Source: Chloranthus sessilifolius
Lineage: Eukaryota; Streptophyta; Magnoliopsida; Chloranthales; Chloranthaceae
Direction of reading: 5' to 3'
Assembly (NCBI GenBank): GCA_021018995.1
Contig: CM037591.1
Location: 74,799,901 to 74,863,900 of the forward strand
DNA: 64,000 nt
A model generated the notes under the pieces. It had not been told where the DNA came from. It did no database searches and was given only the letters and a program-made list of their open reading frames with translations. The position numbers and the translations under genes are program-made. Below, in pieces: positions 22,763-63,583 of the stretch (position 1 is its first letter; each line of letters opens with the position of its first letter).

Positions 22763-22764
22763 AT

Positions 22765-22776
22765 TGGTATCAAAGC
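22765..22776 (+). other. Primer binding site, tRNA-iMet type
   Basis: TGGTATCAAAGC, one base from the usual TGGTATCAGAGC, three bases after the LTR end. Confidence 0.85.
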
Positions 22777-22865
22777 ATTTTCTTTAGAATTTTTGACAAG
22801 TCTTGGATTTCATCAGAGTGTAGGGATCTGCTGCTAATGAAACTTTTGTTTCTTGTGCAGAGTGT

Positions 22866-24213: not shown

Positions 24214-24333
24214 TGAATTTATAAATTTTTTATAGAAAAGGTGTACTTATATATAGATGGTCTATGTAGAGTTGTTTAATCAAATTGATTTTCATGTTTT
24301 GATATAATGCATGAGTAAGCTGCTAAACTATAT

Positions 24334-27300: not shown

Positions 27301-27755
27301 ATCAAAAGGATGACCGTAGACTTTGCTATTGGTGATCATGTGTTTGTGAAAATATCACCCATGAAAGGTGTGATGAGGTTTGGGGAGAGGAGAAAGTTAA
27401 GTCCCCGTTACCTTGGGCCCTTTGAAGTTTTGGGTTGAGTTGGCGAGGTAGCTTGTCGCATTGGATTACCTCCTTTGTTTCATCGGGTACACAACATGTT
27501 TCATGTCTCTATGCTCCGAAAGTATGTAAAAGACACTACACACATCTTGGGAGATCAATCTATCAAGATGCATGAAGACATGACCATGATCGAAGGGGCG
27601 GCTCAAATTTTGGATAAAAAAAAAATAAATTATGCGCACTAGGACTATCGCTTTAGTACTTGTCAAGTGGGGAAATCATTCGCCCGAAGAAGCAACTTGG
27701 GAGCACGAGGTCAAAATCAAGGAACTATACCCCCATTTGTTTGAGAAACCATAGA
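24334..27755 (+). pseudogene. pol region of the Tekay/Del element
   Basis: Domains in order: retropepsin with DLGSTHSFI near 24405, reverse transcriptase (about 24960-25650) with VVFVDDILIYS, RNase H (about 25811-26200) with [20 protein letters not shown], integrase zinc region and core (about 26470-27250) with HPDCTKMYQDLRKSYWWRG, SDRDPLYTSKFW and [10 protein letters not shown], and the C-terminal chromodomain-like piece (about 27650-27753) with SPEEATWEHEVKIKELYPHL. Broken, with many breaks. Confidence 0.9.
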
Positions 27756-28167
27756 CGCTAAGTGCAATGCGTAAAGCTAGATTCAAAATTTTCTTATAAT
27801 GCATATGTAGGCCTCTTAAATTTTGAATGCTATATGTAACACCAAGTTGATTTGTATTGACATCTATATAGTTGTGACATTGATGCACAAACTATGGTTT
27901 AAGCTGTTTCAGCATTGTGGAGTCCGAGTTGTGAACTTGGTGCATAAATAGTGGGTAAGTTACTATTTAAATTAGGTTGGTAAATTGGGAATTTGATGAA
28001 CAAGTTGCAGAAATGTATGTTAGTTAACCCTATATGCAGTGACATAGGGATTGGATGTAAAACTGATGTTAGGAATCTCAAAATTTCAAGCAAAAATTGA
28101 AGACTGTTGTAAATAGAGGGTGAAGGCATGCAAAAGCAGCCTTAGCTCTGTTTTGGTGAAAACCGTT

Positions 28168-28395
28168 CAATCGAATTTAAAATTCGATCGAACGAAATTC
28201 ACTGAGGTGAAGTCTAAGCAGTTGCCAGACAATCGTTCGAACGAAATCCCTGGGCCAGTGAGATCAAAATTGGCTAGGAAATAAGCTTTCGAAAATCGTT
28301 CGATCGGAATTAGTATCCATTCGAATGAAATTTGGGGGGCAGCATTTAATGTTCAAAAATCGTTCGAACAATTTAAAATCGTTTCAATCGATTAC
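28168..28395. repeat. TCGTTCGA-type motif array before the extra ORF
   Basis: Several copies of AATCGTTCGAACGAAATT or variants, near-palindromic around TTCGAA or TCGATCGA. The same motif fills part of both LTRs (21115-21222 and 31181-31610). Confidence 0.8.
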
Positions 28396-28401
28396 AAAAA
28401 C

Positions 28402-28410
28402 TATATATAT
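28402..28410 (+). promoter_or_regulatory. TATA-like box before the extra ORF
   Basis: TATATATAT lies seven bases after the motif array and about 275 bases before the ATG at 28685. The sequence between looks like an untranslated leader (pyrimidine-rich, with a possible GTAAAT to GGTTTAG intron at about 28571-28629). Promoter use is inferred. Confidence 0.4.
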
Positions 28411-28684
28411 GGCATGCAATTTTTTTACCCATTCACCATTAAAAAAAATTTAATCTGTTTTTCTCTCTTGGGGAGGCTCTAGCGCTTGTGAGTGACACCC
28501 GAAGTTGGAGATTTTCGGGCATCTTCATGCTTGGATCATCACACAAGCAACTATTACTAGTGTTAAGAGGTAAATTTTCACCTCTTTCAACTTTTAAATT
28601 TGACATTTTGTTACATACCCTAGGGTTTAGTAAGTTGGGGCAAAACCCTTCCTCCATTTCTTGGAAAATTGGAGTGTCATTGTA

Positions 28685-30037
28685 ATGGCTCCTAAGACTC
28701 GCCAAGCCAGGGCGAGTGCCGCGTCGAAGAAACCCACGACGGGTTCTTCATCACAACAACCACTGAAGAAACCCTCAACACCGATGGGTTCTTCAACGAG
28801 ACCGCCTACACAGGCCCAACCACCACAACAAGCACCGCCCCCACCACCTCAACGTGAGCGACCCAATGAGTGGTGGGCCGATAAAGATTTTGAACCGGAG
28901 TGGTTCATTGATCCTAAGACTTTTGCCAAGCGTGAGGAAACGCTTTGGGCTTTCAATTTCCTTTCCACGGATGGTTTAACCGGGATACTCCAATCGTGCA
29001 AGGAGAATTTCTACCCCCGCATTGTAAGATTGTTTTACCAAAATATAGAAGATGTCAAGAACCCGACCATCCTTAGAACGAAAATTGACAATAGCCACTA
29101 TGAGTTCACGTATGATGGCGTGGCCGATGCCTTGGAATGTTTTCATACTTATAACCATGAAGACATCGCTTTGGCCAAACCTTTTCTAGCCCCTTGGGAT
29201 TATAAGTATGTAGCGGCCGAAATGACTCATGGTAGAACGGGATCCGGTCACTCAATTAAACGAGTTGACCTACCATGCAAGCTATGGATGCTCGATTCTA
29301 TCATAAAGTGCAACTTATATCCATTGCGGTATAGAACGGAACGTGTGGGAGAAATCCAAATGGCTCTATTTTCGGCTTTTAGTGGCCGATGATTTAACGC
29401 GTCACGTGTCGCTATTGAGGGAATGAAATATGCACGCAAGAAAATGCTTGAGGGAGTGAAGAAACCCGTTGAGGATATGCCCTATGCGCGTCTCATCTCA
29501 CTAATGGTTGAGGATTACGCGGGTGATGAGACGTAAACCCTCTCAAAGAATGAACCAAAACTAGCGGGAAATGTTCAACCATACACTATGGTTGATTGGA
29601 ATTGTATGCTTGTGAAACTAACCAAGAAACCAGCTATATAGGAACCACCACAGCCTGAACCACATGCTCAAGAACAGCCACCGCATGACGCTCCTACTCA
29701 GGATGAACCAGCTGCTACCTTTCTGCTTCAGCAACGTACCCGACGCCGTACGCAAACATATGCACCACCACCACCTGAGGGCGCCCCTACACTGACCATC
29801 GCCAACCTTTATGCACTCATGGAAGCGAATACTCGTCAAATGGCGGAGAACAATCGGTTACTCATTCACCATTTGGATTATTATGGCGCATTACACGCCG
29901 AAGAAATGCGCTTCATGTACCCCGCCGATTATCTTCAACGGATGGAAGCTGCACAAGCATGGTTCCCGGATGCATCGAGTTTCGATGCGGGAGACCGTGG
30001 TGATGACGGGGATCAGCCTGGTGACGCGGGAACTTGA
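28685..30037 (+). pseudogene. Extra sense ORF region between pol and 3' LTR, plant-transposon-protein-like
   Basis: Begins MAPKTRQARASAASKKPTTG with a basic, proline-rich head. A folded region follows, with NFYPRIVRLFYQNI, SHYEFTYDGVADALECF and LPCKLWMLDSIIKCNLYPLR. This order (a FYxNI-type helix, a short beta part, then a helical block before N-L-Y-P) resembles the domain known as 'putative plant transposon protein' (PF20167). The tail is proline-rich, then helical with TIANLYALMEANTRQMAENN, perhaps a coiled coil. It is not part of the usual Gag-Pol set. Broken, with a few breaks. The family match is by eye and the function is unknown. Confidence 0.6.
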
Positions 30038-30561
30038 AGGGTGTTGTGAGGAGTTTAAAGTTTTGAATAGTTTTATGAAAAGTTTTGGATATTGTAAATA
30101 CTTAAAATAGGTACCATTGGACATGTATCCTTTTAAAACGATCGTGGCATGGGTGCCACACAAATCTATACATAACTTCTTGGTGATGCCTTCTATGTTT
30201 TCTGTTTTGATGTACACAATGATTCAGATATAGCTTAGCTCTTTGCAGGTCCTCTATACATTAGTGTAGTAATGTGTGCTAAGAACCTTTTGTTATGTAA
30301 TCATTCTACTTATTTGTTTATACGGTTTTGTTGGAAATGTGGTTGTTGAAGGCGGGTACAAATTTGATGTACTGCTTTGTGGGACACGATTGCAAATTTT
30401 CTTTTGCAAGGTGTTACTCTCTCGTGTTGACTGTATATGTGTGATTTGAATTTTTACAGGATCTCTTGCTGTGAATGTGTCCATAAACGTATTTTAAAGA
30501 GTGTGTGGGCTTCCCATGGAGGGGGAGCCCTTTAGTCAAATTTTCGGGGACGAAAATTTCC

Positions 30562-30574
30562 AAGGTGGGGAGAA
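30562..30574 (+). other. Polypurine tract of the Tekay/Del element
   Basis: AAGGTGGGGAGAA directly before the LTR start TGTAACGTCCC. It is preceded by TTTCGGGGACGAAAATTTC, the conserved pre-PPT phrase of Tekay/Del elements. Confidence 0.9.
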
Positions 30575-33141
30575 TGTAACGTCCCAAAAATTTTTGTACT
30601 TTAAATAGTGCACCTCGGGAAGTGTGCTCGACTGGTCGCTTGTTGGACCGAGTCAAAATTGGCTTGGTTGACTTACTTGGTAAATTTTAGTTAGATAAAC
30701 TAAGTATGAAGTGTGGTGTGTGTAATAAGAGTGAGATGATATGGGTCATATATACCTAGGAGGTATGTGTGCTTTACACCTAACTAAAGAAGGGGTTATA
30801 ACAAGGGGAGAATTTATTTCTCCTAGCTTAGGTTGTTGAGAAATTTAGAAGGAAATAAATGAGAAGTGTGATGGTGTGATTATGTGTGGACATTTAATAG
30901 GTATGATTAGGAGAGGATCGGGAAGGATTCGCTAATTTAAGGCTTCACATCGAAGTGAGATCGGGGATCTCGAGTTTGTGAAACCCTTGTGGTAAACGAA
31001 GTGCAGGATCAAGGGATCCGACCGGTTAAAAAGGTGAGACCAGCTATTTTAATGAGTTATAGTTGCTATGTTGTAGATCTAATTGGTTAGGTGTGAAAAA
31101 TGGGTAAGAAAGGAAGTAGATGTTGAAGAGATGAGTTCTAAAGGATAGAACTCGATCTATTCTGGAAATGGGCAAAACCGATCGAACAAAATTAGTAACC
31201 GTTCAATCGATTTTTCTCAAGGAGTAAAGAAAGTATAATGCAGAGTTCTGGAGAAATCGTTCGAACAAATTAAGATTCGTTCGATCGATTTGGAAAACTG
31301 TTCGAATGAAATTTAAACCGTTCAATCGGTTTTGGCCAAAGAAGAAAGAAGTGAAATGCTAATTTCTGAGAAAATTGTTTGAAAGATTTATGAATCGTTC
31401 GATCGATTTGGAAAATCATTCGAACGAAATTAAGATCGTTCGATCAGTTTTGCTGCAAAATAAAAATAGGTGTAAAGGATTTCTGAGGAAATCGATTGAA
31501 TGAAATAAAACCATTCGATCAATTTTGGGAATTCGTTTGAACGATTTAAAATCGTTCGATCGATTTTCCAAACTGTTCGATCGATTTAAGAATCGTTCGA
31601 TCGATTTGGGCTAAATGAGGCTTTTGTTGGGTTTTGCTTATGAGCTGTTTATAAGTTGGGGTTAGGCTTCTAAATCCAATGTTTTTACACCAATTGTGAT
31701 ATGTTGTATGTGTTTGGCCATACCTAGGTTGAGCTGGACCTTAGGGTGGTTATGGCTAGCTCGGATTAAGGGATCCGTAGATTTAATTTACGTATGAGGT
31801 AGGAAATATTCTGAACTTGTACACTTGATTACAAAAGCATGTATGTAGTGATCTTCTAAGTATATAAAATTGTTTAAAGCATAGTTAAGTGCATGTGCTA
31901 AAATGTCAAGATAAGTATGTGCAATTAAGGTGTGTGTGCGTACACGGAAATGAGAAAATAATAAGCATAAGAATTGAGACATCCCAGGGATGTATATGTG
32001 AACTGGGCATCTAAGTGATGCATATGAATGTGGGACATCCCAGGGATGTATAGTTAACGTGAATATCCACGTGATGTGAAAGTGCATGAATGAGATTTAA
32101 ACGGCCTTTGAATTATTAATATTTAGCATAATTACACTGTGAATAATTATATGTAGTTGTACAATTAATTTAAGGTTTGGAGAATACCCCATCAATACGG
32201 CGGTATACCCGTGACTGACTCGGCAGGATATCCATGACCGGTACGGCGGCCAATCCGTACACCAGTAAGATATCCCAGGGATGTATATGAGTTATGCGCC
32301 CCATCGCCTATGTGAAAAGGACTTGGGTTATGTCACATGAAAAATAGTCTGATTGGACGACGATGGAGGGAATTCTATCGGGGCTCGATGCTATATTGCT
32401 CGGAAATTATTTAAGTTAATTGATTTAAGTCATGAGACCAGCTCTGTTGTAATATGAGAACTAGTTGAGTGTAAGAGGCCATGTGTAGTGTAGCAAATGC
32501 ATTCTGTTCATTCTTCTAGTATCTCAAACTGTTTTCTAACTATTTTATATTGATGAAATCATGCTTCAATCATGTCATGAAATGTATGTGAGTAAGATAG
32601 ATTTACATGTTCAGATATCTTCCCTATTGAGCCAGGATGTAGCTCACCCTTTTGACTATACGTCACAAGTTTTGAGATAGCGGTTGCATCTGGTGACATC
32701 GATCCCGAGGACTCGGATTACATTTCGGTGGAGGAATTTGAGCCCCCTCTTGAGAAGTTCTTTTCGAGGACCCTTTGTGTACTTTGATAGTTATTTTGAG
32801 AGAGATTATACGACTTTGCATGTCTAGCCTATTTTGTTGGGATAATGTACTTATGTGAGATATTCTTTTGTCAAACCATCTGAGGTGACCATTGATACGT
32901 CACTGATGGTTCAGGTTGGTTCTTTTGCTCATGCAGTGGCATGAGATTAGAACTATCTTTTGGGTTATATGTTTTGGCTTTAAATTATAGAACTGGAGAT
33001 TTAGTTCAGTATTTGTCCTTTTGTACATGCTTTGTTTATGGTTGTGGATATACTAAGTGTTCTGCATATGTCATTGAGGCACGACCTCAAGGGTTGTGTT
33101 GATGGCACGGGTTTCGGGGTGTCAAAATCCGTGCTGTCACA
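30575..33141 (+). repeat. 3' LTR of the Tekay/Del element
   Basis: About 2.57 kb, from TGTAACGTCCC to GCTGTCACA. It contains the motif array (31181-31610) and a TTTATAAG box at 31648. Its right neighbour is reverse-strand gag sequence of another element. Confidence 0.9.
31181..31610. repeat. TCGTTCGA-type motif array in the 3' LTR
   Basis: About a dozen copies of AATCGTTCGAACGAATTTAA or TCGTTCGATCGATTT, near-palindromic, ending some 40 bases before the TTTATAAG box. Confidence 0.85.
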
Positions 33142-33774
33142 CTATCTCGTATTCTGCCATAAACATTTGGCCTTACTGCAACTAAATAAATTTGACTTTG
33201 TATTGATCTCTGATCGCTTCAGGGAAGTACTTTTCATTGAACTTCTTGGTAAACTAAGCCCAGGTCCACGGTGTATTCCACGTTTCTTGTTCCCGGGTCC
33301 TTTCCATGGATTTCCACGATGGATCTACTTTCCCTTCCAATTGGAATGACGCCCATCTGACTTTTTCATCTTCCATGCAAGGTACTACGCAGAAGATCTT
33401 TTCCATTTGATTCAGCCATGCTTCTACTTCGCCAGGGTCTGCTTTTCCTAAGAAGCTGGGGGGTTTCATCCTTCTAAATTTCTGGAATCCAGAGAGTTGG
33501 TACTTGGTCGTAAGCAGGGTAGTCTATTATGTTATAGTAATCGCCTGTTGTGCCATCGTATTCGCCATAGTCTTCAGGGTTTGACTAAGATGTGCGTTGT
33601 TAGTCTCCTCCCAACGAAATGTCAATGGCACCTATGGAAATTTCAACTCCGTCCGACTTGCCATCAGTGTTAACAATTCTTGGTCTACCACCCGGTGTAA
33701 TGAGGATCTGTCACTAACGAACAAAAGTCTAAGCTATGTTTTGATAGAATCTAAGGCCAGTCTCTGATACCAAT

Positions 33775-36365
33775 TGTAACGACACCGAATTTCCAACTCC
33801 GAAACACGTGGAAATTACAAATCGCTAGATCATAGTTCACAATCTAATTACAAAAATTCTTTGGTATTTAATAGAGAGCAAGCCATTTAACTAGTGCATA
33901 AAAGTTCATAATGAAACTGTAAAGTCATAAGTAAAACCACCGGTGACGGTCGTAAGTCACACAAACAGTGGTGCACAATATAATCGATAATCAATGTCTA
34001 CTAAATCCATGATGTACCAAGTCTAAGTGTCCCAAAATAGATCTACGGATAAAACTGCTCAGGATCCAGAACTTCTTCGATACCTATGACACATTGTGTC
34101 AGGGTGAGCTAACAATCTAAGCTCGGTAGAGAAAGCTCAAGACCAACTATAAGTTATCCAGTTAATACATAGTTTCAATGATTAACTTCAAAGGCATTTA
34201 AATGTCCAAATAGAATTTTAAGGATCTAAAGTTCAAAAATCACATGTTCTGAATTAGAGTTTCAAATAAGGTTCAATGATGTCATTCTCTAAGGTTTCAA
34301 ATGAGTATTCACTTTATTCTTATCGAAATTCAGATGCAATTTCTTATTCAGTGTATATCTTAAATCCATAACTTAAATATCTCCAATGCAAATATAACAT
34401 TGGCAATTTCCAATAATCGATGGGAATCCCCTCCTAACCATCGTCGTTCAATGAATAATTTTCTATGTGCCCAAGCCCCTGCGTCTTGAGGGATACTTGT
34501 GCCGTTCAATGGTTCAAAAGTGTCGAAGCATAGGATTCGTTCATTTAAATCTCAAATCAAAGACAAAGTTCTAAGGGTTTCAAGTTCAAAAGTTCAAATA
34601 TTAATATGAAATAGAGTTCAAGCTCTTTCAAAGTTCGAAGAGTTCAGATTTCCAAATAATCAATAATTCATGAGCAATTCAAAGAGTTCGATATATCAAT
34701 GTTCAATGATTCAAGAGTTTAATATTCAAATATTCAATAATTCAAAAGCAATTCAAAGAGTTCGATGTTCAAATACTTAATAATTTCATATTCAAATTCA
34801 TTATTAAGCCTACGATTCAAAGTTCAAAATATAGTTATGCATTGAAATTCTCCCACCTCGATTTAGAAGATCGTATGATTCGAAATGAGATACGTCCCTT
34901 GTAATAGGTCTGATTCTCTCTTCTATGGTCCATGTACAATTGATACATAAAAGAAATAAATCATCAAAGGTTCAAAATTGGTTGATTGATTCGGATAGGC
35001 AAATCATCTTCTGATTTCACTATTCACGACTCGCTGCTGTCCTATGACAGTGAGTTGTGGTCTGTTTACAGCAAGCTGTGGATGTACAACCATCAAAACT
35101 TTATTCTATTTTAATATACATAGCTCACTGCTATGCTATGACAGCGAGTTGTAGTTATGTTCACAGCGAGCTGCGGCTATGGATTTTCCCAAAGTGCATT
35201 CTGTTTTTGGTATCCACAGCAAGCTGTCATATATCATAGCAAGTTGCGACTATTTTCAATCCCATTGGATGTATCATCTCGAGCTACTTTAAAATGATAT
35301 ATTATAATGATCAATTAAACTTTTCTATCAAAAGTTATGGTCTCCTGAAGACACTTTCTTCATAGCGACATTGATTTTCTTTCAGTGACAGTAAGCCGTG
35401 AATCGCTCGGTTCCTTATTTAAAATTTTGTTTCTTACTATCGGTTGTCAGACATCAGACTGTGGTATTTTCACAACACGCTATGACATATGATAGCGCAT
35501 TGTGGGTCTTATCACAGTGAGTTATCATTGTCGTCTTCAAGATCCAAGTTTCTTATGTATTTGAGATCCGAAGATTGAGATCCGCTTATTATTCTAATGA
35601 TTTAGAAAATCATAAATTTGATTATCTAATGTAATTTCAACCCTATAGACCATAATTAATAATTAAAACTACCTCTTGTAGGGAGACCAATGATCCTACG
35701 ATGGTTGGGAGATCTCAATGCTTTACATGTTCTCACGTCAGGGTTCCCCCTTCTAAATCGTAAGGATGCTAGTGATCAAAGCGTCTTAAAGAGAACGCCT
35801 TGATGTTCATAGAGAGTTTGAAGATGAAGGCCAAAGGAGAAAGCTAGAGAATTTTATGAATAATAGAAAAGAGGAGGTTAGGGGGTTATAAAAAAAAAAA
35901 GGAGGTTAGGGCTCTTATTTAAAGGGAAAAGGTTAGGGTTTCTCTTACGGTCCTTCTAATTAGAGTTTTAGAGGGTTTAGGAAATAGTATTCTCAAGAAC
36001 CCACAAATTCTAATTTGTACATGAGTTGTCTTTTTCCAACTCTTTGGATAACGTTTGGTGCTAGGTTGGCACACCTAGCTTAAATGTATAGGTTGTTGGT
36101 TTAAAGTCCAAAAATAAAGTTTTTAGAGTCTCTAGCAAGGTTTGATCCCTAAACCTTTTTCTTAGAATTCAAGTCTTTTACTACTGGTGCTCTCACGAAG
36201 CTTATGTAACTATTTATACAATTATATGCATGAATCATTTTTAGACCAAAGTGTATATTTTAAGTTTAAAATATTTCAAAGTTAAATAGCATATATTATA
36301 TACCTTATTAAGCATATACATCTATTATGTATATTAATGATTTTTTGAAAAAGTGGGATGTTGTA
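33775..36365 (-). repeat. LTR of the minus-strand Tekay-like element
   Basis: About 2.59 kb. On the minus strand it begins ACATCCCACTTTTTC-like and ends GTGTCGTTACA before the primer site. It holds a motif array at 35037-35540 and a degenerate repeat of CAAAGAGTTCGATATTCAA at about 34620-34800. Confidence 0.8.
35037..35540. repeat. Motif array in the minus-strand Tekay-like LTR
   Basis: Repeated CACAGCGAGCTGTGG-like units and their complements (for example at 35038, 35069, 35122, 35142, 35160, 35216 and 35470). Each unit is an imperfect dyad around AGCT or GAGTT. Confidence 0.7.
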
Positions 36366-36917
36366 GGGACAAATCTACAAGGCAACAATTTAAAACTTTA
36401 AAATATCTAACTGGGCATTGGTTACCCTGACCCCTAGACCGGACCAGACCCATGGACACTGTTGTAAAGTGGAAACGATGTGAACCGTTTGAAAGAGGAG
36501 TTGATCTCTTTATTAGAAAAGATTATAATTTGTAAGATTTCCTATTAATCAAATGTTAATGGGGGCCCTTAACCTCGATTATTAAAAAAAGTCTATGCTA
36601 CTATTGATACTAATGAATATTCAACTCCTCCTAGAAAAAATATTAAGCTTATAACAATTAAATTTTCTTAATGCCACAAGAAGCTTACATTTAAATGACA
36701 AATCCTATTATAAAATCCTTCTAGGTAAACTTTAGAGCCAATTTATTTAATTAGTCATGCATTGCGCTCAACTGTTATTTTGTATCGATGAAAGAGTGCT
36801 TCTTACGGCATTCCATTGTTGAGCTTTCGACTAAAGGAGAAGAAGACCAGATTACGGAACCCATCACTGCTAGCAGCCAGACGAGGTGTTCAGGGGAAAA
36901 TTAAAGTAGCTGCAATG
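36366..36917. other. No gene recognised
   Basis: AT-rich stretch between the LTR and the host gene fragments. No coding or terminal-repeat sequence was recognised. The left end of the presumed gene-capturing transposon would be expected here or further left. Confidence 0.3.
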
Positions 36918-37450
36918 TGGCATATATCCTTTGGGTTGAGGAATCAAACTAATTCCTATAAACAGTAATCCTAGGAATCTTATCAGTGGTATCTTCATCT
37001 GCTGCCCCTAATAACATATTGAAGTTGTGATTCAAAAGATAACAATTCGAGATTGTAACGTCAGTCAACCCTTGTAGGACACTGACCAATCCTAAATTCC
37101 CATCACGGGAACTCAAGTGATCAATCCACATGGACAATGTCGAACACCTCAAAGTTATGAAAAATTACATTCTCTACTGCTGCGAGAGTGACGGCATTCC
37201 CAACAAGAGTGACATTTACACCTCTCCCATCTATACTTTTTCCTCAAGTGTGATCACAATGCTTTCTTTGAAAATTATCCAAGCTCCTTCATTTTCTCCA
37301 GCAGAATTAATGGCAAAACGAAGAGTACCAAGAGCCAGATTACTCGGGTCATCATCAGATCTATTTACCATATAATATTAGCCCTTTGCACCACCAGTGG
37401 TTCCTGCAACGAAGCCAATTCCACAAAGGGGAAGTTTGTTGCCTTGTTCA
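36918..37450 (-). pseudogene. Pectate lyase (PL1 family) gene fragment
   Basis: On the minus strand the sequence encodes pieces of a plant pectate lyase, a secreted enzyme that cleaves de-esterified pectin in the cell wall. Visible parts in order: [56 protein letters not shown], then SMWIDHLSSRDGNLGLVSVL and VTISNCYLLNHNFNMLLGAA. The IDGRG, WIDH and VTISN...LLGA segments are family hallmarks. The stretch changes frame and lacks joins between exons, and the C-terminal half of the enzyme (after VYRN) is missing. No signal peptide is seen. It is a pseudogene fragment within a cluster of unrelated host gene pieces. Confidence 0.75.
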
Positions 37451-37469
37451 TATGGTGAGAATTGACATT

Positions 37470-37789
37470 TGGTGCCATCAATGATATAGTTGTTGTTTTC
37501 CTTCTCTGAGAAAAAACTTGTTAGTCCATATGTTTGGCTTTTGGGATTTATGATTTTACTGCTTTCTTTACAAGCAAACAGTTGTAGAAGGTCATATGCT
37601 CCTTTAGCTTGGACTAGAGCCTGCTTGGCAAACTCTAGTCGCTTCTGGAATATGTACCTATTTTTTGTATCGAGAAAGAAAGAAATAAAAGTTAGTTCAT
37701 AATTAGAAGCATGGGTCAAAATTTCAGCCATGCAATTTTCACCTGATCGTAACCTCGTTGCAAAAACAAAGAGTATATGGCCCAAATTG
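37470..37789 (-). other. Open stretch joining two host gene fragments, origin unknown
   Basis: A 142-codon open frame (37806-37378) runs from the EDR2-like piece to the start of the pectate lyase piece. The middle, with [20 protein letters not shown], is not a family I recognise. It may come from a fifth gene or from an intron. Confidence 0.35.
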
Positions 37790-38058
37790 AGAATCCCATA
37801 GTTCAAACGTTCTCGAAATGCTTCAAGCCCTTTTCTTGAAATGTAGCTAAAGCGATGTATATCAAGGTCAATTTAAAAGTAATTAGGGCCCTGCATGAAA
37901 ATAGAATAAGGTGAGATTAGGAAGAAATCACAAACGGAGCATCACAAGAAAATTAAAACTTACCATAAGGTACCCAAACATAGTGCCAGTGGTGGCACTT
38001 GGATAAATCTCAAAACTGAGTACTACAGGCACTAGCTTATCATCTTCGGACTGCCCAC
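37790..38058 (-). pseudogene. EDR2-like (DUF1336) gene fragment, two exons
   Basis: First exon (38058-37964) reads SEDDKLVPVVLSFEIYPSAT then TGTMFGYLM. It is followed by a 73-base intron with GTAAGT and GCAG ends (37963-37891), then a second exon with [20 protein letters not shown]. This is the C-terminal DUF1336 region of ENHANCED DISEASE RESISTANCE 2-like proteins, which in plants carry PH and START lipid-binding domains. Only part of the last domain is present, the second exon has an internal stop (in place of the usual E before IDLDIHRF), and it runs into unrelated sequence after about [12 protein letters not shown]. The kept intron means the copy came from DNA, not from mRNA. Confidence 0.7.
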
Positions 38059-38606
38059 AAAATTTCAGCCGAAAATCAAAAATTTTGGTTTCGGTCCAGC
38101 CCGAAACCGAAACAAAATCTGAAATTTTGATCCTTGGCATGAGGTGTTTTCTTTCTTTTTTTTTCTAAGATGAGACTCAACCCAAAATTGATGCTTGTTA
38201 GAGGGTATCTAACCACCTGATCAAACCACATTTTGTGCGTCAATGTGTAGGTTAGGACTGTATACGTCCACCCTGTACGTACGTGACCAACAGTGGGTAA
38301 TGGCCTTTTATGTGCTGAGCATGAAATAAAACAACCTAAACCGCTTACACTTTGTATATAATAGACGCTGATATCAACTATAAATATGATGCTACAAGCA
38401 CTAAAAGGAATGCATTTTAATATTCAAATTACAATACACCATATAATTTTTTTGGGGATAGATTTGAAATCCACTGTGTAGGGTGAATTGCTTGAAAAAT
38501 ACAGTAACTAATAACTGCAAAAAACTCTTCGACCAAGTTTTTGACGTATCCAAGCACATAAATGATACTTGAGTATCATTAGCAGACAACCATTAAAGAA
38601 ACTAAC

Positions 38607-38801
38607 CTTCAAGAAGCTTCCAACTTCTGCCTCAAGTCAACAATTTCAGATTTAGTAGTAACGAGCCTCTGTTTGGATATTGCTTCAGCTTCATTGGCTG
38701 CTTTAACACTCATTTCCAAGTTGTGTTCATCAAGAGGCGATTTAAGACTTTGAACATGAGCCCATGCTTTATATTCCAAGTCCCTAGCGTCCATGAGATC
38801 C
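38607..38801 (-). pseudogene. HUB2-like (BRE1-type E3 ubiquitin ligase) exon fragment
   Basis: One exon-sized piece with a consensus acceptor (CCGTAG) and donor (GTTAGT) on the minus strand. It encodes DARDLEYKAWAHVQSLKSPL, DEHNLEMSVKAANEAEAISK and VDLRQKLEAS. This matches the coiled-coil part of plant HUB1/HUB2, the nuclear ligases for histone H2B mono-ubiquitination. The frame ends in a stop just before the donor, so the piece would not splice on in frame. No other HUB exon is nearby, and the RING finger is absent. Identification is from memory of the family's coiled coil; HUB2 is more likely than HUB1. Confidence 0.65.
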
Positions 38802-39664
38802 CTACGGATGGAAAAGAAAATCTGAGCATAATGTAAATTTTTTTGCTCCAGACACCGACCGAACCTTTCATACACTCTAAGCAACCTACTTTACGCAATA
38901 TAAAATTAGCTGATCTGCCAAATCCTTTTCCCATTTTATATGGTATTATACAATACAATTACATGAACATGAAGCGATAAATCACTTGACCTTTATAAAT
39001 TCCTTTTTATGAATCATATCTAATTAAATAAGAATATGCCAATGACCAGTTCTCAAATCAATGCATCTATTTTTCCTTATGACTGCAAAATGGAGTAGAG
39101 ATCAAAGAAAGAACCAATAACAAACCCCCCAAAAAAAACCTCTTTGATTATTGAAATCAAGAATGACTCCAGTACATGGGAACATAACCAACATAAATAA
39201 AGAACATAACACACTGAACTAGTAACAAAATGAGTTTGATACAATATGCGCAATAAGGTAAAGAGTACGACTACTAAACTGCAACAGAAAGTGCGCTAGA
39301 TGTTGTTAACACTTGACTGAAATGTGAAATCTCAAATTTGAAGTGATCCAGATCATATAATTGTACAACATATTCTAGCATTGAAGATCTTTATTTGCAT
39401 CCTGGAAGAACAATGTACAACATCATATTTATAGTTTGGTATTTGGTCTTTATTTGCATCCAGTGAGGAAAATATGAGTGGCGAAAATATAATTTGGTAT
39501 TTGGTATGAAATTGTTGAAAGTGGAACAAAAAATTCAAGATTCATAAGTGAAATAAATGTTGAATTCTTTATTTTGATGAAATTTGAGAAGTTGGGTATT
39601 GTTTATGGAAATTGATGTTTCGATGCAAGTGAAACTCATGTTAAAATTTATGTGACATGTACAG
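38802..39664. other. No gene recognised between the HUB2-like and DXS pieces
   Basis: AT-rich non-coding stretch. Parts next to the HUB2-like exon and to the DXS exon are probably their introns carried along. Confidence 0.35.
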
Positions 39665-40254
39665 GTGGTGCATGATGTGGATCTTCAAAAAGTACCCGTT
39701 CGGTTCGCATTGGACCAAGCTGGTCTAGTCAGAGCAGACGGGCCTACCCATTGCGGAGCATTTTATATCATGTACATGGCATGCCTACCGAACATGATTG
39801 TAATGGCCCCATCCAATGAAGCTGAGCTGATGAGCATGGTTGCTATCGTAGCAACCATTGATGACAGACCAAGTTGCTTCAGGTTTCTAAGGGGCAATGG
39901 AGTTGGTGCAAGTCTGCCTCCTAGTGGCAAAGGCACCCCTCTTGAGGTCATTATCTCAATCTCTCTAACAAATTCTTCCGAAAAATATTGCAATAATAAC
40001 AAAATAAAACAGCTGATTTGTCAAATGGTTTGTCGTTTTAACAAATTGGAAAGGGAAGAATTCTGATGGAAGGCAATAGAGTTGCTATTCTCGGATTTGG
40101 GTCTGTAACCTAGACATGTATCGAAGCTGCAAACAATCTTAAATCCAACGATATCGATGAGATCCTAATTACGGTGGCGGAAGGTTCAATTGGAGGATTT
40201 GGGTCTCATGTATATCATTTATTGGCGTTGGATGGTCTCTTAGAACAAAAGTAG
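39665..40254 (+). pseudogene. DXS: DXS (1-deoxy-D-xylulose-5-phosphate synthase) gene fragment
   Basis: DXS is the plastid thiamine-dependent enzyme that opens the MEP isoprenoid pathway. The first exon (39665-39946, after an ACAG acceptor) encodes [30 protein letters not shown] and [10 protein letters not shown], the transketolase pyrimidine-binding part. The second (about 40045-40254) encodes [20 protein letters not shown] and [20 protein letters not shown], the transketolase C-terminal part. The intron between keeps a GT but its AG is lost. The second exon has an internal stop after GFGSVT, and about 27 residues normally between the KSxDI segment and the ITVEEGS segment are absent. Only about 160 of the usual 700 residues are present. 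Clear pseudogene, opposite in strand to the other three host fragments. Confidence 0.88.
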
Positions 40255-40260
40255 TTCAGG

Positions 40261-40599
40261 ATAAGGCTAATATATTGTATATATTATGTATTTTAGACGT
40301 ATGCTTTATAGTTTTCACTTTGTAATTCTTAACAGTCCCCTCTTTTGTGACAGAAGACTTCATAAATCCTTTGAAACTTGAAAGTGCTTTGCCTTTTAAG
40401 TGGTAGTGTTTATGGTCATGGTTAAAATCTCAATTTTTCAATATGTATGCTTGATACCAATACCAAGAATGCGTCGGGCAGAACAAACTTGCATAAAAAG
40501 AAAGCAATAAAAAAATTGCATTAAAAAAAAGAATTAAAAAAAAATTGTATTTACAAAAAAAATTTGCATAAAAAATTGTTGGCGTAATTTTTTATTTTT
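40261..40599. other. No gene recognised, A-rich
   Basis: Non-coding with a long A-rich stretch (about 40495-40560). It lies between the DXS piece and the CACTA-type end. Confidence 0.3.
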
Positions 40600-40840
40600 T
40601 TTTAAATTCCATAAAAATCCGACTGCCCAAAACAGTGATTTTTATTTCTATGACTGCTAAGAGCAGTCGTTGTTGAAATTCATAAACCACTGTGGTGTAC
40701 AATAGTAAAAAAAAAATCACTATTTTGTTTAGAACTGGTTAGGACAGTATGTTTTTTGAAAAAATCGTTGTCAAAGATAGTCGTTTTTTGAAAAAATCAC
40801 TGTTTAAGGCAGTGATTTTTTTTGTTTTTTTCACGTAATG
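40600..40840 (-). mobile_element. CACTA (En/Spm)-type terminal and subterminal repeat region
   Basis: Read on the minus strand from 40840: CATTACGTGAAAAAAAC, close to the CACTA-type terminal repeat, followed by several subterminal repeats of both orientations, such as AATCACTGCC, CAGTGATTTTT, GACTGCTCTTAGCAGTC and ACTGTCCTAACC. Such short mirrored repeats of ACTG/CAGT before poly-A or poly-T tracts are typical of plant CACTA ends. The first bases are not exactly CACTA, and the matching left end was not found. No transposase is seen. Confidence 0.6.
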
Positions 40841-41800
40841 TTTTGCTCCTTCGTACAGTGTGATAACTTGCACTATCTTTTGACTCCTTCATTTGCACAA
40901 CCAGTTTCTTCAAAAAAATTGAAGCACAAGGGAGCAAATGAGCACTATAACCACATGTGGGCTTTGTCACAAAATTCTCCGAATTAATAAAAAATTTAGG
41001 AGTATTCTCCGAATAGGTGGTCCGGAGAACTTTTTGCCGCGCTTCGTTAGTTGATTCTTTGGAAAAAAAAATTGTTTTTCTTTTGAATCCCTGAATTTTT
41101 TTCCAACATTTTTCCCCTAATCTTTTTATGTATTTATACTAATTATGCTGAAGTAAAACACCCCACCGAATTATTTCTGGATCGAAACTTGCATGTGGAT
41201 GGGGGAGGTATGAAAGTCCCCCAATATTTACCACGGATATTTATGCACCATTAGGGCACGTTTTATTAATGTAATTAAGGATGCGTTATTAATATGCAGT
41301 TGACTCTAAATGCATTTTTTATTGGAATGTGAATTTACTACTTTATTATTCCTTAATACAAAATCATGCAATTTTGCCACACGAGACAATGAGTCTCGTT
41401 TCACTTCATCGTTACACATAATGGAGATAATTAAAACAGGTCGTTGGGTCATTTGCAATCAAATGTGCCCTTAGTCTTAACGCATATTTCTATTGTGTCA
41501 AAGGGTCAAGGTGACATACTAAAATGGTCCGTTCGATCTGATATAATTTGAACAGAAATTAATGAGCAAGTTGACTTAATCAAAATGTATAACAATTATA
41601 AACCTTATACAAACCAAAATATCAAGCATAAAATTAACTTGATCATGAAAAGAGTGAAAGCCATTAAGATTATGGGAAATAGGTCACAAATATTGGTTTA
41701 AAATATTAGCCAAAATAAAACACAGAGAAAATACAAGAGTGCAGGACCTAAGAAATCTTGAGGTCCTTAAATTCATATTTGCCCCACCACTTTGAATAAG
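40841..41800. other. No gene recognised
   Basis: AT-rich intergenic sequence without recognised coding, terminal repeats or RNA genes. Confidence 0.4.
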
Positions 41801-41809
41801 TGATCATTA

Positions 41810-42105
41810 AGGCTGTCAATGGGCCACGCAAGGCTTGGCCCTAGGCCGGGCTGCAAAGGTAAGCCCTAGCCCGGCTTTAGGCTGGGACAACATATACTCA
41901 GCCCAGCCCGACCCTAAGCTGGGCCGGGCCTGGACGAGGGCCATTTTTTATTTTGAAATTTCTTTTATGTATTAATTTCTTCGTAAATTCTTCTTCTTTA
42001 GACATGTTTGATTTGAAAAAAAAATTATAAATCTAATTTTGATACATGCCAGGACGGAAACCAGGGGGGTGGTCGTGCCATGAGAGAGAGAGAGAGAGAG
42101 AGAGA
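41810..42105. mobile_element. Partial hAT-like MITE end and (GA)n run
   Basis: TAAGGCTGTCAATGGGCCACG at 41812 is close to the TAGGGCTGTCAATGGGC end of many plant hAT MITEs. It is followed by GGC-rich sequence (GGCCGGGC repeats). The matching other end was not found. A (GA)n microsatellite lies at 42082-42105. Confidence 0.4.
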
Positions 42106-42896
42106 AAGTAATTCCTTGTACGTTGAGGGTTTTTGCAAAAAAAAACTTAATATACTCTTGAGGGTACTTTACTAAAATATACCCCGATTCAATGTGTGGG
42201 AAAAATATCACCTGAGGGTATTTTTGTAACCCTCTGATTAAAAATCTAATTTACATATATAATGAGTACTCCGGCTGGGTAAAAGTGGGTTACACATCAT
42301 TGGGCCCTAACCCAGCTCGGGCTACACTTGCCCGCCACAATGACAGGGGGAAGAGGATACCAGTTGAGCTATTGCTTAACCCGTAAAATTCAAAGTGGTA
42401 AAAGGTGAAAAACGACTGTCCAAAATCAAATAAATTCACAGAATAATAAATTATGTATGGTGTTACTATCACATCACTTTATGTTACATCCACCTCACTT
42501 AAAAAAAGAAAACTACGTTGATTTTTTTAAAAGAGAAAATAAACATCATTTTCTGTCTCAATCATCCACACAATAGATCTTGACCTCAAAGGCCTCCTAT
42601 CAAACGGTCAGATGTTGATTCCATGGGACATACATTCCAAAAAGTGAACATGATCTAGGTACCATCAAATATAATTCACATTCACTATTTGAGATTTATC
42701 TCACGTGGAATCAACATCAAACCGTTTAATAGCAGGCCCACGATCTCAACTTGTAATTAGGTGCCTTGGTGAACGGCATAGTGGACCAAACATCACACTT
42801 GAGGTGTTTGTGTTTAATGCACAATAAATTTCTTATTGTTTTTAGTAAAGATAAAACTCAGCGGTTCCAATACCAAACATGACACTTGAGCTCATG

Positions 42897-43290: not shown

Positions 43291-43932
43291 AGCTCATGGT
43301 GACCAAAAACGCATTTTTTTCCAGAAAAATGCATTTAAAATATTGTTTTTGTTAAAAAATGAAAAAAAAATGCCATTTTCAAAAAATTCCCTTTTTTTTC
43401 TGAAAAAACCATTTTGAACCCATTTTTTATAATAAAAAGTCATTTTTTCCCATTTCTTTCCTGTTTAAAACGTTTGGCCACAACATAAAAATGTTTTAGT
43501 TTTTATAATTACTATTTTATTTTTTTTTGTAATTTTCTTAGTTTTTTCCTAAAATTACCAAAAATTACTATTTTTTTCCATATATTTCGAGAATCATTTT
43601 ATTCTCGTACCTAGACTTGGTCACTATACTTGAGCTAGGTTTGCAAATTTGGTCAGGTCAGGTTGGGTTTAAGAGTGACCCAAGACCAGCATGGCTAGGA
43701 GGGACTCAAATTGGAACTGGGTTAAACTCAATCATAGGTCCATCCCACTTAATTGTTAAGGCCTAGCCCATTGGACCTTACCTTGGCAGGCTCTTTGATC
43801 CCAACGGACCAGCCTAATGAGTAGGGTTGTCGATATGTCTAGTCAGACTGTGCAAAAATTTCAGTTGTCGGACGGTAGAGGGCATATATCCAACCCTAAC
43901 TGATCTGATGGTGCACCCTCAGTCGATCTGAC

Positions 43933-45474
43933 TGGTAACATTTTATATTGTACCTTGTCTTAACCTATTGCAAGCGCACAACGGTATTGTAGTATGTGTA
44001 AAATAATAATAATAATAATTTTGTTTAAAACTAAAGTGTTGGATTGAAATAAAATTATTTTAATGACAAAATTTAAGTTCTCTATCGCAAATTTTTGTAA
44101 TCCTAATTAATTATAACTTCGTTCTCTGAATTTCATATGATTATCTTAAGGCGGCAACGATAATCTAAGAAGAATAAAAGATCGGTTTAACGACAACATC
44201 AAATTTTCTAGCATGAATATCGTTAACAAAACTAAGGCAACATAATCAGGTGATGGAAGTCTAGTAATCTCAATCCTACAACAACAATGATAACAACGAG
44301 AAAGAAATTATGGAAATCGTGAAAACTTTTCAAAACTCATATTTGTTAACCAATCACAATTCTGAATTTAGAAAACTCATAAATTTTTAAAATTCATAAT
44401 CAATTTTTTATATCGGGTTCCTAAACTTATAAAAGAAATTAGCAACTCATTATTCTATAAAATTGAAAAATAATTATAGTAAAAATTAAATTAAAACTAA
44501 TCTAATCATTAGTCTTCCAGATCTTGGTCGTCAATTAAAATCGAGAATCCTTTAGATGAACTAAATAGAGAAATTCTAAAACAAAAATTAAAATTAAAAC
44601 TAAAATTGGAATTGAAAGATGGAAATTTAAATTGCTAAAAACAAAAATTACACTAAGTTGATCTTTCGACCTCTTCAATCTTAGTTGTCAATTAAGATCA
44701 AAACTCCTTAGATGATTATTCTTAGGCGCATGCTCTCTTATTTATAGATGCATAAGAGGCTGGTTACAAAATTGTAGGACTCTATTCTAAGTTAACTTCC
44801 TAAAGCAAAACTACCTAATACATATCTTCCTTATTTAGAACTTCTAGAGTGGTGGAGAATCTTCTTTCTTAATATTCAACAACAGTAAATCTCGCTGAGC
44901 TTTCTTGAATCATGGAGTGCATGAATTCAGCTTGCAGTTTTACGATTTTGCATAGTTGTGCACTGTCTCGTAAGTCTTCAGGAATCAATCGTGTAGTTTT
45001 AGGGGACAAAATCGTGAATACGATTTTGTATCTTTCTTATATTCTTCGTACAATTCTTCATTCGATCGCTTGTAAGCTTCCTTGATCTCTCTCGGTTTAC
45101 TCTTTTCTACTTTGCAAGTTGTCGTACCAATCTGGAGCCAATAATATGGTTACAATCTCTCATTTTGTTTAATCGCAAGGCTGCGATTTTATTCTTTCTC
45201 TGGTTCTCGCTCTCAATTGTGTTTTCTTTACTTTGACTGGATTGTAGGACTTACGATTTCTTTTTATCCTCTCGTAAACTGGCATTTCAGCTATGATTTT
45301 ACTCTTCTTTCCTTGTGATCTCTGCGTTCATGCTTTCGAAGCTCTTTTTGGCATAGATTTGCACTCTCTTCTTCTTCTATCTGCTGATTAAATGTTTACT
45401 ATCTAAACACTATTAGTAAAAAACTATTAACTATCAGTTGAGGGCATCAAAGTGGTAAAATATGTAATTGGTCA
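43933..45474 (-). repeat. Left LTR of the coding-free element (3' LTR if minus)
   Basis: Direct repeat of 47144-48792, starting TGGTAACATTTTA and ending ATTGGTCA on the plus strand. Confidence 0.7.
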
Positions 45475-47088
45475 CACCACCAAACTTGAGTTTTGCTAGT
45501 CCCTAGCAAACATGGGAAAGATATGTATTCCTACTAATAAATTAAATGCTACTTTTGTAGGGACCAAGATTGCATTTAGCAGATGCACCAAGCCTTTAAA
45601 CTCCTAGGTGATCTCTAGTGGAGGAGTTGTCGCCCAAAGGTTTCTAGCGAAGGTACCTACAAGCTTCCAAAATTTTTGAATGTTTCAAAACTTTTCAAGA
45701 CACTAACCTACAATAATACACTTAGTCAATCATTACATGGTTGCAAAAATTTTCAAAAATATGATTCCATTTCTGAATTACTTCCCATCCTAGTTATCCT
45801 TAGTCAGATTCTCAACAGTCTCAATTCATGCAAAGTATGTAGTGTATGCATACCAATGATAGAATTCTATTCGTTATAAATTTTTTTAAACTGCAGATTT
45901 AGAAAATATTTTCATTCAAATCTCATTGTAGCATACACTCTCAAAAGATATTGAAGTTGTTGGGTTCTCTCGAAATGATATATATGAGAATTTTTCAAAG
46001 ATATATAAACAATGTAAATCTCATAAAAAAATAATCCACATATTCTGCTCTTATGCTATCAGAATTTCATAGTGCTTATTAGGAGCATCTCTATTATGCT
46101 CTTACTTTGTGAATCTTAGATCAAAGAGGGCATTGATTGACTTGTAATGGGGCTTGAGTTAAAGGTTCCAAAAAAAGAGTAAGAGGATTCAAAGTTTCTG
46201 AGATTTCAGTTCATCTCTAACCTACTCTTTTACATCTTTTTTTTTTCTTTAGTAAGGATCTAAAAAGTTAGGTCACTTCTTGCCAATTTCTCATATAAAT
46301 CCCTTTTCTTTCTTCTTTATTCTTGCACTCTCTCGATTCTTTCTTTTTTCTTAGATTAGAAACCTTTTTTGCTTCTCTCTCTCCTCTTTTTATTTTCTCA
46401 TATTTTCACTTTCAGATTTTATTTCTTTTTGAGAAGTAACATTTTTGGAACATTCCCTTTTCAATTTTTTTATACACCTTCCACTCCTCTTTTCCCTTTG
46501 ATCTAAATTCTCAGAAGTACAATGGTAAAAGACTAATAATTTTAGGATGTATTTTTGGTTAAGGGCTATAAAATTTGGTACAAAGAAATTTTTCGATTTC
46601 AGACTTCAAATATGAGTTCGAGAGGCAAATATTAGGGATTTTGACTTTTTAGCTTAGACTTATAGAAGGATGGTCTCTTCTCATTCCCAAGGTAATTAGT
46701 AATGTTGTCATATTGTGTCAATACTTATGATAAATAGTTCTAGATCACAAATAACACAATCATAGTCATGGATTCAAAATAGCAAATATGAGATTTCAGT
46801 TTAAGCAATCAAGAAGTTCAAAGGAAAATTGAAAAGGTTAGACATAGTATTCTCTCAATGAAAAGATAAGGCTCCAAAAGCTTACTCAAAAACTCAATTT
46901 TGGTACAAGTGCACAATTGGACTAAACATGAATATCAATTGCATCAAATCATTGATTTTGAACTCCTTTTAAGATGATGGTACTATGATTGAAATCAAAT
47001 TTTATCTAAAACTTTACTCATATATAATGGTTAACTAAATCAAACAGTTAAACTTAAAATCATAAATAAACACTAAACTAAATAAAAC

Positions 47089-47142
<54 letters not shown>

Positions 47143-47143
47143 T
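45475..47143. other. Internal region of the coding-free LTR element
   Basis: AT-rich with pyrimidine-rich stretches and no open frame of note. It ends in a (TA)n run (47095-47140). Confidence 0.6.
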
Positions 47144-48792
47144 TAGTAGCACTTTATACTATACATTGTCTTAACCAATTGCAAATGCGTAACAATATTG
47201 TAATACCTATATTAGGTATCGATCCCACAGGAAACGTATATATCTAAAAAATCTTTATTTGCCTTTAAAGAATAAAAAAAATAGTTTTGTATAAAATTAA
47301 AGTGTTGGATTGAAATAAAATTATTTTAATGCAAAGTTTAGGTTCCCTATTGCAGATTTTTATAATCCTAATTAATTATAAATTCATTATTTGAATTTCA
47401 TGTGATTATCTTAAGGCGACAACGACAACATAAGAAGAATAAAAGATCGATCTAAGACACAATGGCAACATAAATGTTTTTAGTATGAATATCGTTAACA
47501 AATTTGACTAAAGCAATATAGTCGGGTGATAGAAGTCTAGTAATCTCAATCCTATAGAAACAACAACAATAAAGAGAAAGAAATTAAAAAAATCGTGAAA
47601 ATCTTTCAAAACTCATAGACAAGTTTTAAAACTCATATTTGTTAATCAATCACAATTTCCAATTTAAAAAACTCATAAATTCTTAACTATTCATACTTAA
47701 TGTTTGATATCGGATTCCTAAACTTATAAAAGAAATTAGCTTCTCATTATTCTATGAAATCGAAAAACAGTTACAAGTACTGAGTTTAAAATTGTTGAAA
47801 GTAAAAATTAAATTAAAACTAATCTAATCATTAGTCTTCCAAATCTTAGTCGTCAATTAAAATCGAGAATCCTTTAGATGAACTAAATACAGAAATTGAA
47901 AAACAGAAATTAAAATTAAAATTAAAACTAAAACTGGAATTGAAAGACAGGAATTTAAATTGTTGGAAATAAAAACTACACTAAGTTGATCCTCTGTCCT
48001 CTTTAATCTTAGTTGTCAATTAAGATCAAAGCTCCTTGGATGATTATTCTTAGACATAGGCACTCTTATTTCTAAAAGCATAAGAGGCCGATTATAAAAT
48101 TGTATGACTCTATTCTAAGTAAACTTTCTAAAACTAATTTTCCTAAAACTAAACTACCTTATACATATCTTCCTTATTTAAAACTTTTAGAGTCGTGAAG
48201 AATCTTCTTTCCCTGAATCGTGAAATGCATGGACTCTTCTTATGATTTTACAATTTTGTATGGTTGTACACACACGTAAGTCTTCAGAAATCAATCGTAT
48301 AGCTTTTCAATGGGCAATCGTGAATATGATTTTATATCTTTCAATATATTCTTCGAACGATTCTTCATTCGATCACTCGTAAGCTTCCTCGATCTCTCTG
48401 TGTACTCTTCTCTACTTTGCTAGCTCTCACACACAATCTGGAGCTAATCATATGGTTACAATCTCTTATTTTGTTCAATCGCAAGGTTGCAATTTTGTTC
48501 TTCCTCTTATTCTCGCTCACGATTGTGTTTTCTTTACTTCGACTACATCATAAGACTTACGATTGACTTACGATTTCTTATCATTGTTTAGTAAACTGAC
48601 ATTTTAGCTACAATTTTACTTATCTTTCATTGCGATCTCTGCGTTTGTGTTTTCGAAGCTCTTTTTGACACAAATTTACACTTATTCAATCTGCTAATCT
48701 AAATGTTCACTATCAAAACACTATTAGTAACAAACTATAGACTATGAGCACTCAGTTGAAGACATCAAAGTGGTAAAATATGTAACTGATCA
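47144..48792 (-). repeat. Right LTR of the coding-free element (5' LTR if minus)
   Basis: About 1.65 kb. It carries about 70 bases near its left end (with GGTATCGATCCCACAGG) that the other LTR lacks. Confidence 0.7.
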
Positions 48793-49505
48793 CTGACCCA
48801 ATGGTGCACCCAAAATTACAAATAATTTGACATTTTTTTTTTTTCATTCAAGTGCATCACCCTTTTCCTGGGTTTAGGACATGGCCTTACCTTAGATAAA
48901 ATCTTTGATTTAAGCAAATCATTAGTCTAAATATAGTATGAAAAGAGTGAATTGGATGCATAGTGACAAATTTCGTTTTCAACAATATTTTGATAGGGTT
49001 ACGGGAAATTTTCTGGGAGTATAAAATATATATAATAAATTTATTAAATATTTATAAAAATCTATTTATTATTTTTAAAAAAAAATTAAAATTAAAATTC
49101 ATTAATTTCTGTGATGCGTTGTTAATTTCACAGAAATGATTGAAATTTAGGAGATTTTGGAGAAATTGGTGAAATTTCAGCAAAAATTTCATCCAACCCC
49201 TTCTTTGCTAAATTTCAGAAAAAATTTAGAGATATTTATTACCATGATTGGGAGGACGGAAATTTTAAAATAATTTATTTAATTATTTTAAATGATTAAA
49301 ATGTCCTAACTTATAAATCCCTTTTAAGATTAAAAATTCAGCTCTCGGAATCTCTTATTGTCTATTCTTTTCGTCTCCAAATCTTTCCTTCATTATCCCT
49401 CGCCCATCCCACAAACCCTAATAGCCCTCCTGTTCCTAATGCGTCGCCTCCATCTCTCTCTCTCTCTCTCTTAGGCTATACAAAATCATAAATTATTACT
49501 AAAGA

Positions 49506-52085: not shown

Positions 52086-53108
52086 TGATGCGGGAACTTA
52101 CTAAATGCAATGTTAGGGCTGAGATTAGGATTAACATTAATTTAATCAATTAAAATAACAATTTCTCATAACAAATTATCACGAAAATTCTAGAAATTGA
52201 ATTAGGTGATCTAATTTCGGCCCAAAATAGTGTTACTTTTGTGTGCGTTCCCTATCGCGGATCTAGAAGACTAGAATTCTTATAAACGGCTAGATCTCCA
52301 ATAGTTTTAGGACGTCGAACGAACTCGCAAGCGGGTTCTCTCGATACCAAACGAAAATAAAAGGTTAATAAAATTAATGATGAACAAAATATTGATTTAG
52401 GGCTTTGATGAGATCAATTAAATAATTAGAATTACGCTACTTACGCAAACCGTAGATCTAAAGAAGATAGAGATGGAAGAAGAGTTGGCCTCGCACCAAA
52501 CCGCAAGCGGGAATCGAAGAATCGCTCTTCGTTTTGAGAGAATCACACCCTTACGAAAGTTTAGAACTCTCAATTTGCATAAGCAATTTTCATTAACCAA
52601 AAACTCCTCATAAAGTTTACAAGCCTTTAAATGGGCTAGCCAATGCATAAAATTAAAAATCCTATTATAACTCTAATTCCTAATTCAAATAAAAGAAATA
52701 TCCTAATTCTTCTAAAACAATAAGGAAACTAATCTTATTTCTAATAAAAGAAACAACTTACTTTCTAAAATAAAATAATAAAAGATACTAATCCTAATTC
52801 AATTAGGATTCTTAAAATTCGTCACTTTATGTCCAGCTTCCGAAAACTGACCATAACTTCTTCAATACTTGTTGGAATTGCTTAAATTTTGGCTCATTGG
52901 AAAGCTACTTCGATAAGCTTTTAACTATGATCAATTTTGTATCAATCCGACTTCGTTTAACACTTCAAAATAGGCCAAACATAAAAGTAACGGGATTAAA
53001 AGTTACTCTTCTGCCGATAAGTTACTTTTCTTCTTTCTGATTACTTTGATGTTCTTCTTTTACCTCCGATATGTTATGGGCGGTTGCTTGAATCGGATGT
53101 CCCCATCA
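52086..53108 (-). repeat. 3' LTR of the minus-strand chromovirus
   Basis: 1023 bp. On the minus strand it starts TGATGGGGACATCC and ends TCCCGCATCA. Confidence 0.92.
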
Positions 53109-53109
53109 A

Positions 53110-58496: not shown

Positions 58497-58507
58497 CTGC
58501 CCCTAGG

Positions 58508-58620
58508 GTTTTTTTTTCGTTTTTGATAGGTAGGGCTGGGATTGAACCCATCACCTCAAGATTGCAATATTGACAAATTTCCACTTACCTACAGGCCCAA
58601 TCCCTTGCTACCCCTATTAT
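58508..58620 (-). mobile_element. tRNA-derived SINE
   Basis: On the minus strand a box A-like TAGGTAAGTGG (58591-58581) and a box B GGTTCAATCCC (58548-58538) stand at pol III promoter spacing. They are followed by AGCCCTACCTATCAAAAACG and an A-run (to 58508). Size about 110 bp. It lies beside the 5' LTR of the chromovirus. A target duplication is not certain. Confidence 0.6.

Positions 58621-63551: not shown

Positions 63552-63583
<32 letters not shown>

Follow-up and report, generated by a model that had tools for sequence, protein, structure and literature searches.

CACTA transposons that carry pieces of unrelated genes have already been described in plants. Tgm-Express1, a CACTA element found in the wp allele of soybean, packs exonic and intronic sequence from five unrelated genes into 5.7 kb (PMC1947982). 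Pack-CACTA elements of Arabidopsis and maize are non-autonomous CACTA elements with captured coding DNA, which in maize often comes from more than one locus (PMC8903248). The model for such capture is the joint mobilization of neighboring insertions (PMC8903248; PMC13317346).

The cluster of decayed gene pieces described here is an incomplete example of this kind of object. It lies in a 64 kb stretch of DNA that was analyzed as a whole and is called the window below. The region from 32500 to 42500 was read directly, each claimed piece was translated in all three frames of its strand, and matches to the pieces were sought in Pfam and in the Protein Data Bank (PDB).

Results

A cluster of decayed gene pieces adjoins a CACTA-like end

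Four gene pieces in both orientations span 3.4 kb and adjoin a CACTA-like end. Identification is firm for the DXS and pectate lyase pieces, weak for the EDR2-like piece, and putative for the HUB2-like piece. Every piece is interrupted by one or more stops or frame breaks, and the cluster now likely codes for nothing that works. Intron borders occur in three of the four, and these three are traced to genomic DNA because introns are kept (DXS and EDR2-like) or intron-like borders flank the exon (HUB2-like). We interpret the cluster, with moderate confidence, as a fragment of an old non-autonomous CACTA (En/Spm) transposon with captured genomic pieces of unrelated plant genes. Nine distinct frames in and around the cluster, a selection of those present, gave no credible Pfam match to other gene pieces; the best matches among them, Cac1_C (E 0.07) and ANP (E 2.5), were both rejected. 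A transposase domain was likewise not seen in the selected frames that were scanned, and a search with Rfam at gathering thresholds returned no match across the window.

The right end has CACTA-like repeats and a near-CACTA terminus

Both features that the initial annotation had placed at 40600–40840, mirrored ACTG/CAGT repeats and a near-CACTA terminus, were recovered. This CACTA-type right end, to which no strand is assigned, consists of ACTG/CAGT subterminal direct and inverted repeats and has the terminus CATTACGTGAAA. Nine ACTG/CAGT motifs fall within the 240 bases from 40601 to 40840, whereas the window averages 1.3 per 250 bases, and in 2000 dinucleotide shuffles of this segment the count was never reached. 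The density is the highest in the window, with a maximum of six elsewhere among the top 25 positions listed. Mirrored repeat units (AAAAATCACTG..CAGTGATTTTT) are present, and the minus strand, treated as single-stranded DNA, folds better than all of its shuffles (200 of 200). Subterminal direct and inverted repeats, as in gene-capturing CACTA elements, were found at this right end only.

The outward terminus CATTACGTGAAA lies at 40840–40829 on the minus strand and reads CATTA instead of CACTA, one change in the first five bases; TTT follows directly after the end. The string CACTACGTGAAA was found in none of the transposon papers searched; it occurs in one paper on fermentation, apparently unrelated. 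Since this 12-base string is an extension made by the initial annotation and is absent from the transposon literature searched, only CACTA and the repeat cluster were counted as evidence. The repeat cluster starts about 350 bases from where the DXS match stops.

DXS and pectate lyase pieces

The DXS piece was confirmed on the plus strand. An open exon piece of 94 codons (39665–39946) matches Transket_pyr (PF02779, E 1e-14), and in the PDB comparison 39662–39946 corresponds to residues 442–536 of a chloroplastic DXS (7bzx, E 2.7e-45), which we take to be from Populus. The CAG at 39662–39664, just before the exon piece, may encode residue 442 or serve as an acceptor. The following 98 bases (39947–40044, plus strand) begin with GT and end with AA instead of AG; they are read as a retained intron because the exon parts on either side of them meet at residues 536/537 of 7bzx. 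The next exon piece (40045–40251, plus strand) matches residues 537–574 and 598–629 (E 4.3e-18), lacks ~23 residues (roughly 575–597 of 7bzx), and has one in-frame stop inside the matched part and another directly after it. The first part is identical to 7bzx at 67 of 90 compared positions, and 9 of the 51 positions common to 7bzx and Escherichia coli DXS are altered in it, among them the G of GADG and the D of GAFD. The DXS piece is a nonfunctional copy of genomic DNA. Intron borders had earlier been credited to the HUB2-like and EDR2-like pieces only; both have them, but DXS also keeps an intron.

A pectate lyase (PF00544-type) piece occupies 36890–37467 on the minus strand, with outer limits that are estimates. 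Its identity, proposed from the sequence at the outset, was borne out for 36949–37164 (minus strand), which matches PF00544 (E 9.7e-06, 25.8 bits against a cut-off of 24) and the PDB entry for Jun a 1 (1pxz, E 2.7e-08). The remainder stands differently: the pieces between 37164 and 37467 had no Pfam match when run alone, and they are tentatively assigned to pectate lyase by IDGRG-like and TTGGA-like stretches that resemble the family sequence. One adjoining piece run alone matched pectin lyase B in the PDB (1qcx, E 5.1), a match given no weight. By reading, the piece is broken by stops and by frame changes near 37240, 37131 and 36923, with probable internal losses near the first two, and no intron was seen in it.

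EDR2-like and HUB2-like pieces

The EDR2_C/DUF1336-like piece (37754–38050, minus strand) was read as two exon parts separated by a 73-base GT..AG intron (37963–37891). The second exon part has an in-frame TAA and matches PF07059 (E 0.0015, 18.8 bits), and a longer frame over the same part gave E 0.024 and 14.9 bits, both below the curated cut-off of 24.7; the first part (29 residues) had no Pfam match. The initial assignment of this minus-strand piece keeps its intron and its family resemblance, but with a match under the cut-off. Just before the piece is a short imperfect palindrome (38055–38140, CAAAATTTCAG..CTGAAATTTTG) with TTTCGG/CCGAAA inside, possibly a small foldback element.

Between the EDR2-like and lyase pieces, an open stretch that starts after an AG (37468–37657, minus strand) had no Pfam or PDB match at E up to 10. 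The chance that one given 68-codon stretch stays open is P ~0.0125 at the local stop frequency, uncorrected for the choice of stretch, and for this reason the ~63 codons here may be a further coding piece; they could possibly belong to another gene or be an early exon of the lyase gene. A stop-free frame of 164 codons (37378–37872, minus strand) runs from the EDR2-like piece through this stretch into the start of the lyase piece.

The HUB2-like piece is a single exon (38607–38801, minus strand) that by reading has AG before it and GT after it, and is open except for an in-frame TGA (38611–38609) just before the 3′ border. Its name is putative, given for its resemblance to plant HUB2 sequence. 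The PDB returned 0 matches at E up to 10, Pfam only LepA_C below the cut-off (E 0.069), and a comparison with genome-contig and viral-contig collections gave 92 and 22 pattern stretches, of which 0 were confirmed by tblastn. The minus-strand piece first reported as HUB2-like is a single exon bounded on each side by intron-like borders, and its family name is putative, with no relative confirmed in the databases compared.

No left end was found, and retrotransposon-like sequence lies to the left

The initial annotation had suggested looking for a left terminus. Searches by terminus, repeat, density, and flank comparison across the 64 kb window revealed neither such a terminus nor another subterminal cluster. 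Allowing up to two mismatches, CACTACGTGAAA has three matches in the window against 4.05 expected by chance. The sole match on the strand that a left end needs, at 17475, was rejected, with two mismatches in its first bases. Matches to CAYTACGTGAAAA with up to three mismatches were many and chance-like, and by eye none was followed by subterminal repeats except the right end itself. The right end compared with the window by BLAST gave nothing better elsewhere than E 0.15 among the matches listed, and ACTG/CAGT density showed no second cluster in the window. A 15-base inverted match at 36338–36352 to a subterminal unit was rejected as A/T-rich and without an ACTG cluster around it.

The left end may have been lost, may have decayed, or may lie beyond, or have been removed by, nested retrotransposons to the left. 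Retrotransposon-like sequence does lie left of the cluster, and a motif that we take to be primer-binding-like, TGGTATCAGAG, was read on the minus strand near 33765. Further left, a 12 kb element (21104–33141) is bounded by direct repeats of ~1.66 kb that are 91.5% alike (21104–22762 and 31481–33141) and carries a retroviral-type protease and a zinc knuckle. The unassigned interval ~36100–36890, which separates the retrotransposon-like sequence from the first gene piece, was counted against the CACTA interpretation, as were the missing left end, the CATTA reading of the terminus, and the weaker identities of the HUB2-like and EDR2-like pieces.

Other repeats were observed in the window. Degenerate repeats at 34640–34800 (TTCAAAGAGTTCGAT) and 35014–35530 (TATGACAGYGAGTTGT) lie inside the presumed retrotransposon repeat. 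A second pair of direct repeats (52086–53122 and 57456–58510) is 92.7% alike. A 4.9 kb insertion (43919–48800) interrupts a repeat that is uninterrupted at 62279–63570; it has internal direct repeats of ~1.5 kb that are 78% alike, does not start with TG, and is flanked on both sides by ATGGTGCACCC, an apparent 11-base duplication.

Discussion

Other routes to the cluster

That no CACTA left end is visible in the window also fits a different origin, in which a Helitron gathered the pieces by rolling-circle capture and a short CACTA remnant lies beside them by chance. Helitrons too carry several gene fragments (PMC1947982). A strict scan for CTRR with a hairpin found 0 in the window, a result of low power that says little, since five shuffles gave 0, 0, 0, 1 and 0. 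With relaxed criteria and no shuffle control, scanning found eight per strand over 64 kb, and the one between 33 and 43 kb (37381, minus strand) is probably due to chance because it falls within the coding part of the pectate lyase piece. The 5′ ends of Helitrons are too short for a scan to exclude them. Overall, we consider a Helitron origin unlikely.

The pieces could also have been joined with no single carrier element, by break repair that brought in filler DNA or by successive insertions and deletions. Such a history would suit a region that sits among retrotransposon-like sequence and in which the flank comparison found no pair of bounding repeats. Several unrelated pieces within 3.4 kb, three of four with intron borders and all directly inside a transposon end, are in our judgment more than the usual scattered filler would leave, and we regard this history as quite improbable.

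The same flank comparison bears on carriage by a Pack-MULE or another element with long terminal inverted repeats. Pack-MULEs can also hold material from multiple loci (PMC8903248), but the long terminal inverted repeats of such elements were not found to bracket the region (33000–37200 against 39901–42600, a comparison that strongly diverged repeats could escape). The best inverted pair has 20 bases at 95% identity (41958–41977 with 34957–34938, E 0.002) and is A/T-rich; the next has 15 bases. A carrier of this type is very improbable. That the pieces are gene remnants at their ancestral positions is scarcely credible, and nothing was found in its favor. Within 3.4 kb, unrelated genes are represented by one or two exon parts each, in mixed orientation, and nothing else of them was recognized in the nearby frames scanned.

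Proposed origin in a CACTA transposon

We infer that the gene pieces and the right end form one element, and also the route by which the pieces would have been captured. In the likely mode, as proposed for Pack-CACTA, two neighboring CACTA elements would be mobilized as one unit by transposase acting on their outer ends. Host DNA between the two elements would be carried along, and repeated rounds could accumulate pieces that come from different loci. The proposal of the initial annotation, that a CACTA element captured the gene pieces, agrees with decayed, unrelated sequences in mixed orientation, three of the four having intron borders, beside a CACTA-like end, but the window yielded no left terminus to complete the element. 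A more ambitious proposal is a very long shot: that a CACTA family with CACTACGTGAAA-type ends repeatedly stacks gene pieces, and that the 164-codon frame at 37378–37872 (minus strand), or small RNAs arising from the pieces of DXS and the HUB2-like gene, affect the parent genes.

If confirmed, the locus would be one more CACTA transposon that gathers pieces of two to four unrelated genes. It would add to the tally of gene-shuffling elements and by itself raise no new question.

Comparison with known systems

The chimera had been thought undescribed, and our literature search did not find it, but the kind of object is described, as Tgm-Express1 and Pack-CACTA. The likeness to Tgm-Express1 lies in the CACTA superfamily and in the exon and intron regions of unrelated genes. 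Tgm-Express1 has inverted-repeat ends, lies in an intron of F3H, and has pieces that are spliced into transcripts (PMC1947982), whereas the present cluster, read from sequence alone, has one end only, decayed pieces, and different genes. Annotation of Pack-CACTA elements relies on paired TIRs, target duplications, and clustered copies (PMC8903248); the cluster here shows the right end only. CACTA elements of Chenopodium are similar in combining CACTA ends and subterminal repeats with captured gene fragments (PMC8978399). Their captured pieces lie upstream of a TAD domain of the element (PMC8978399), whereas no transposase domain was seen in the selection of frames scanned here.
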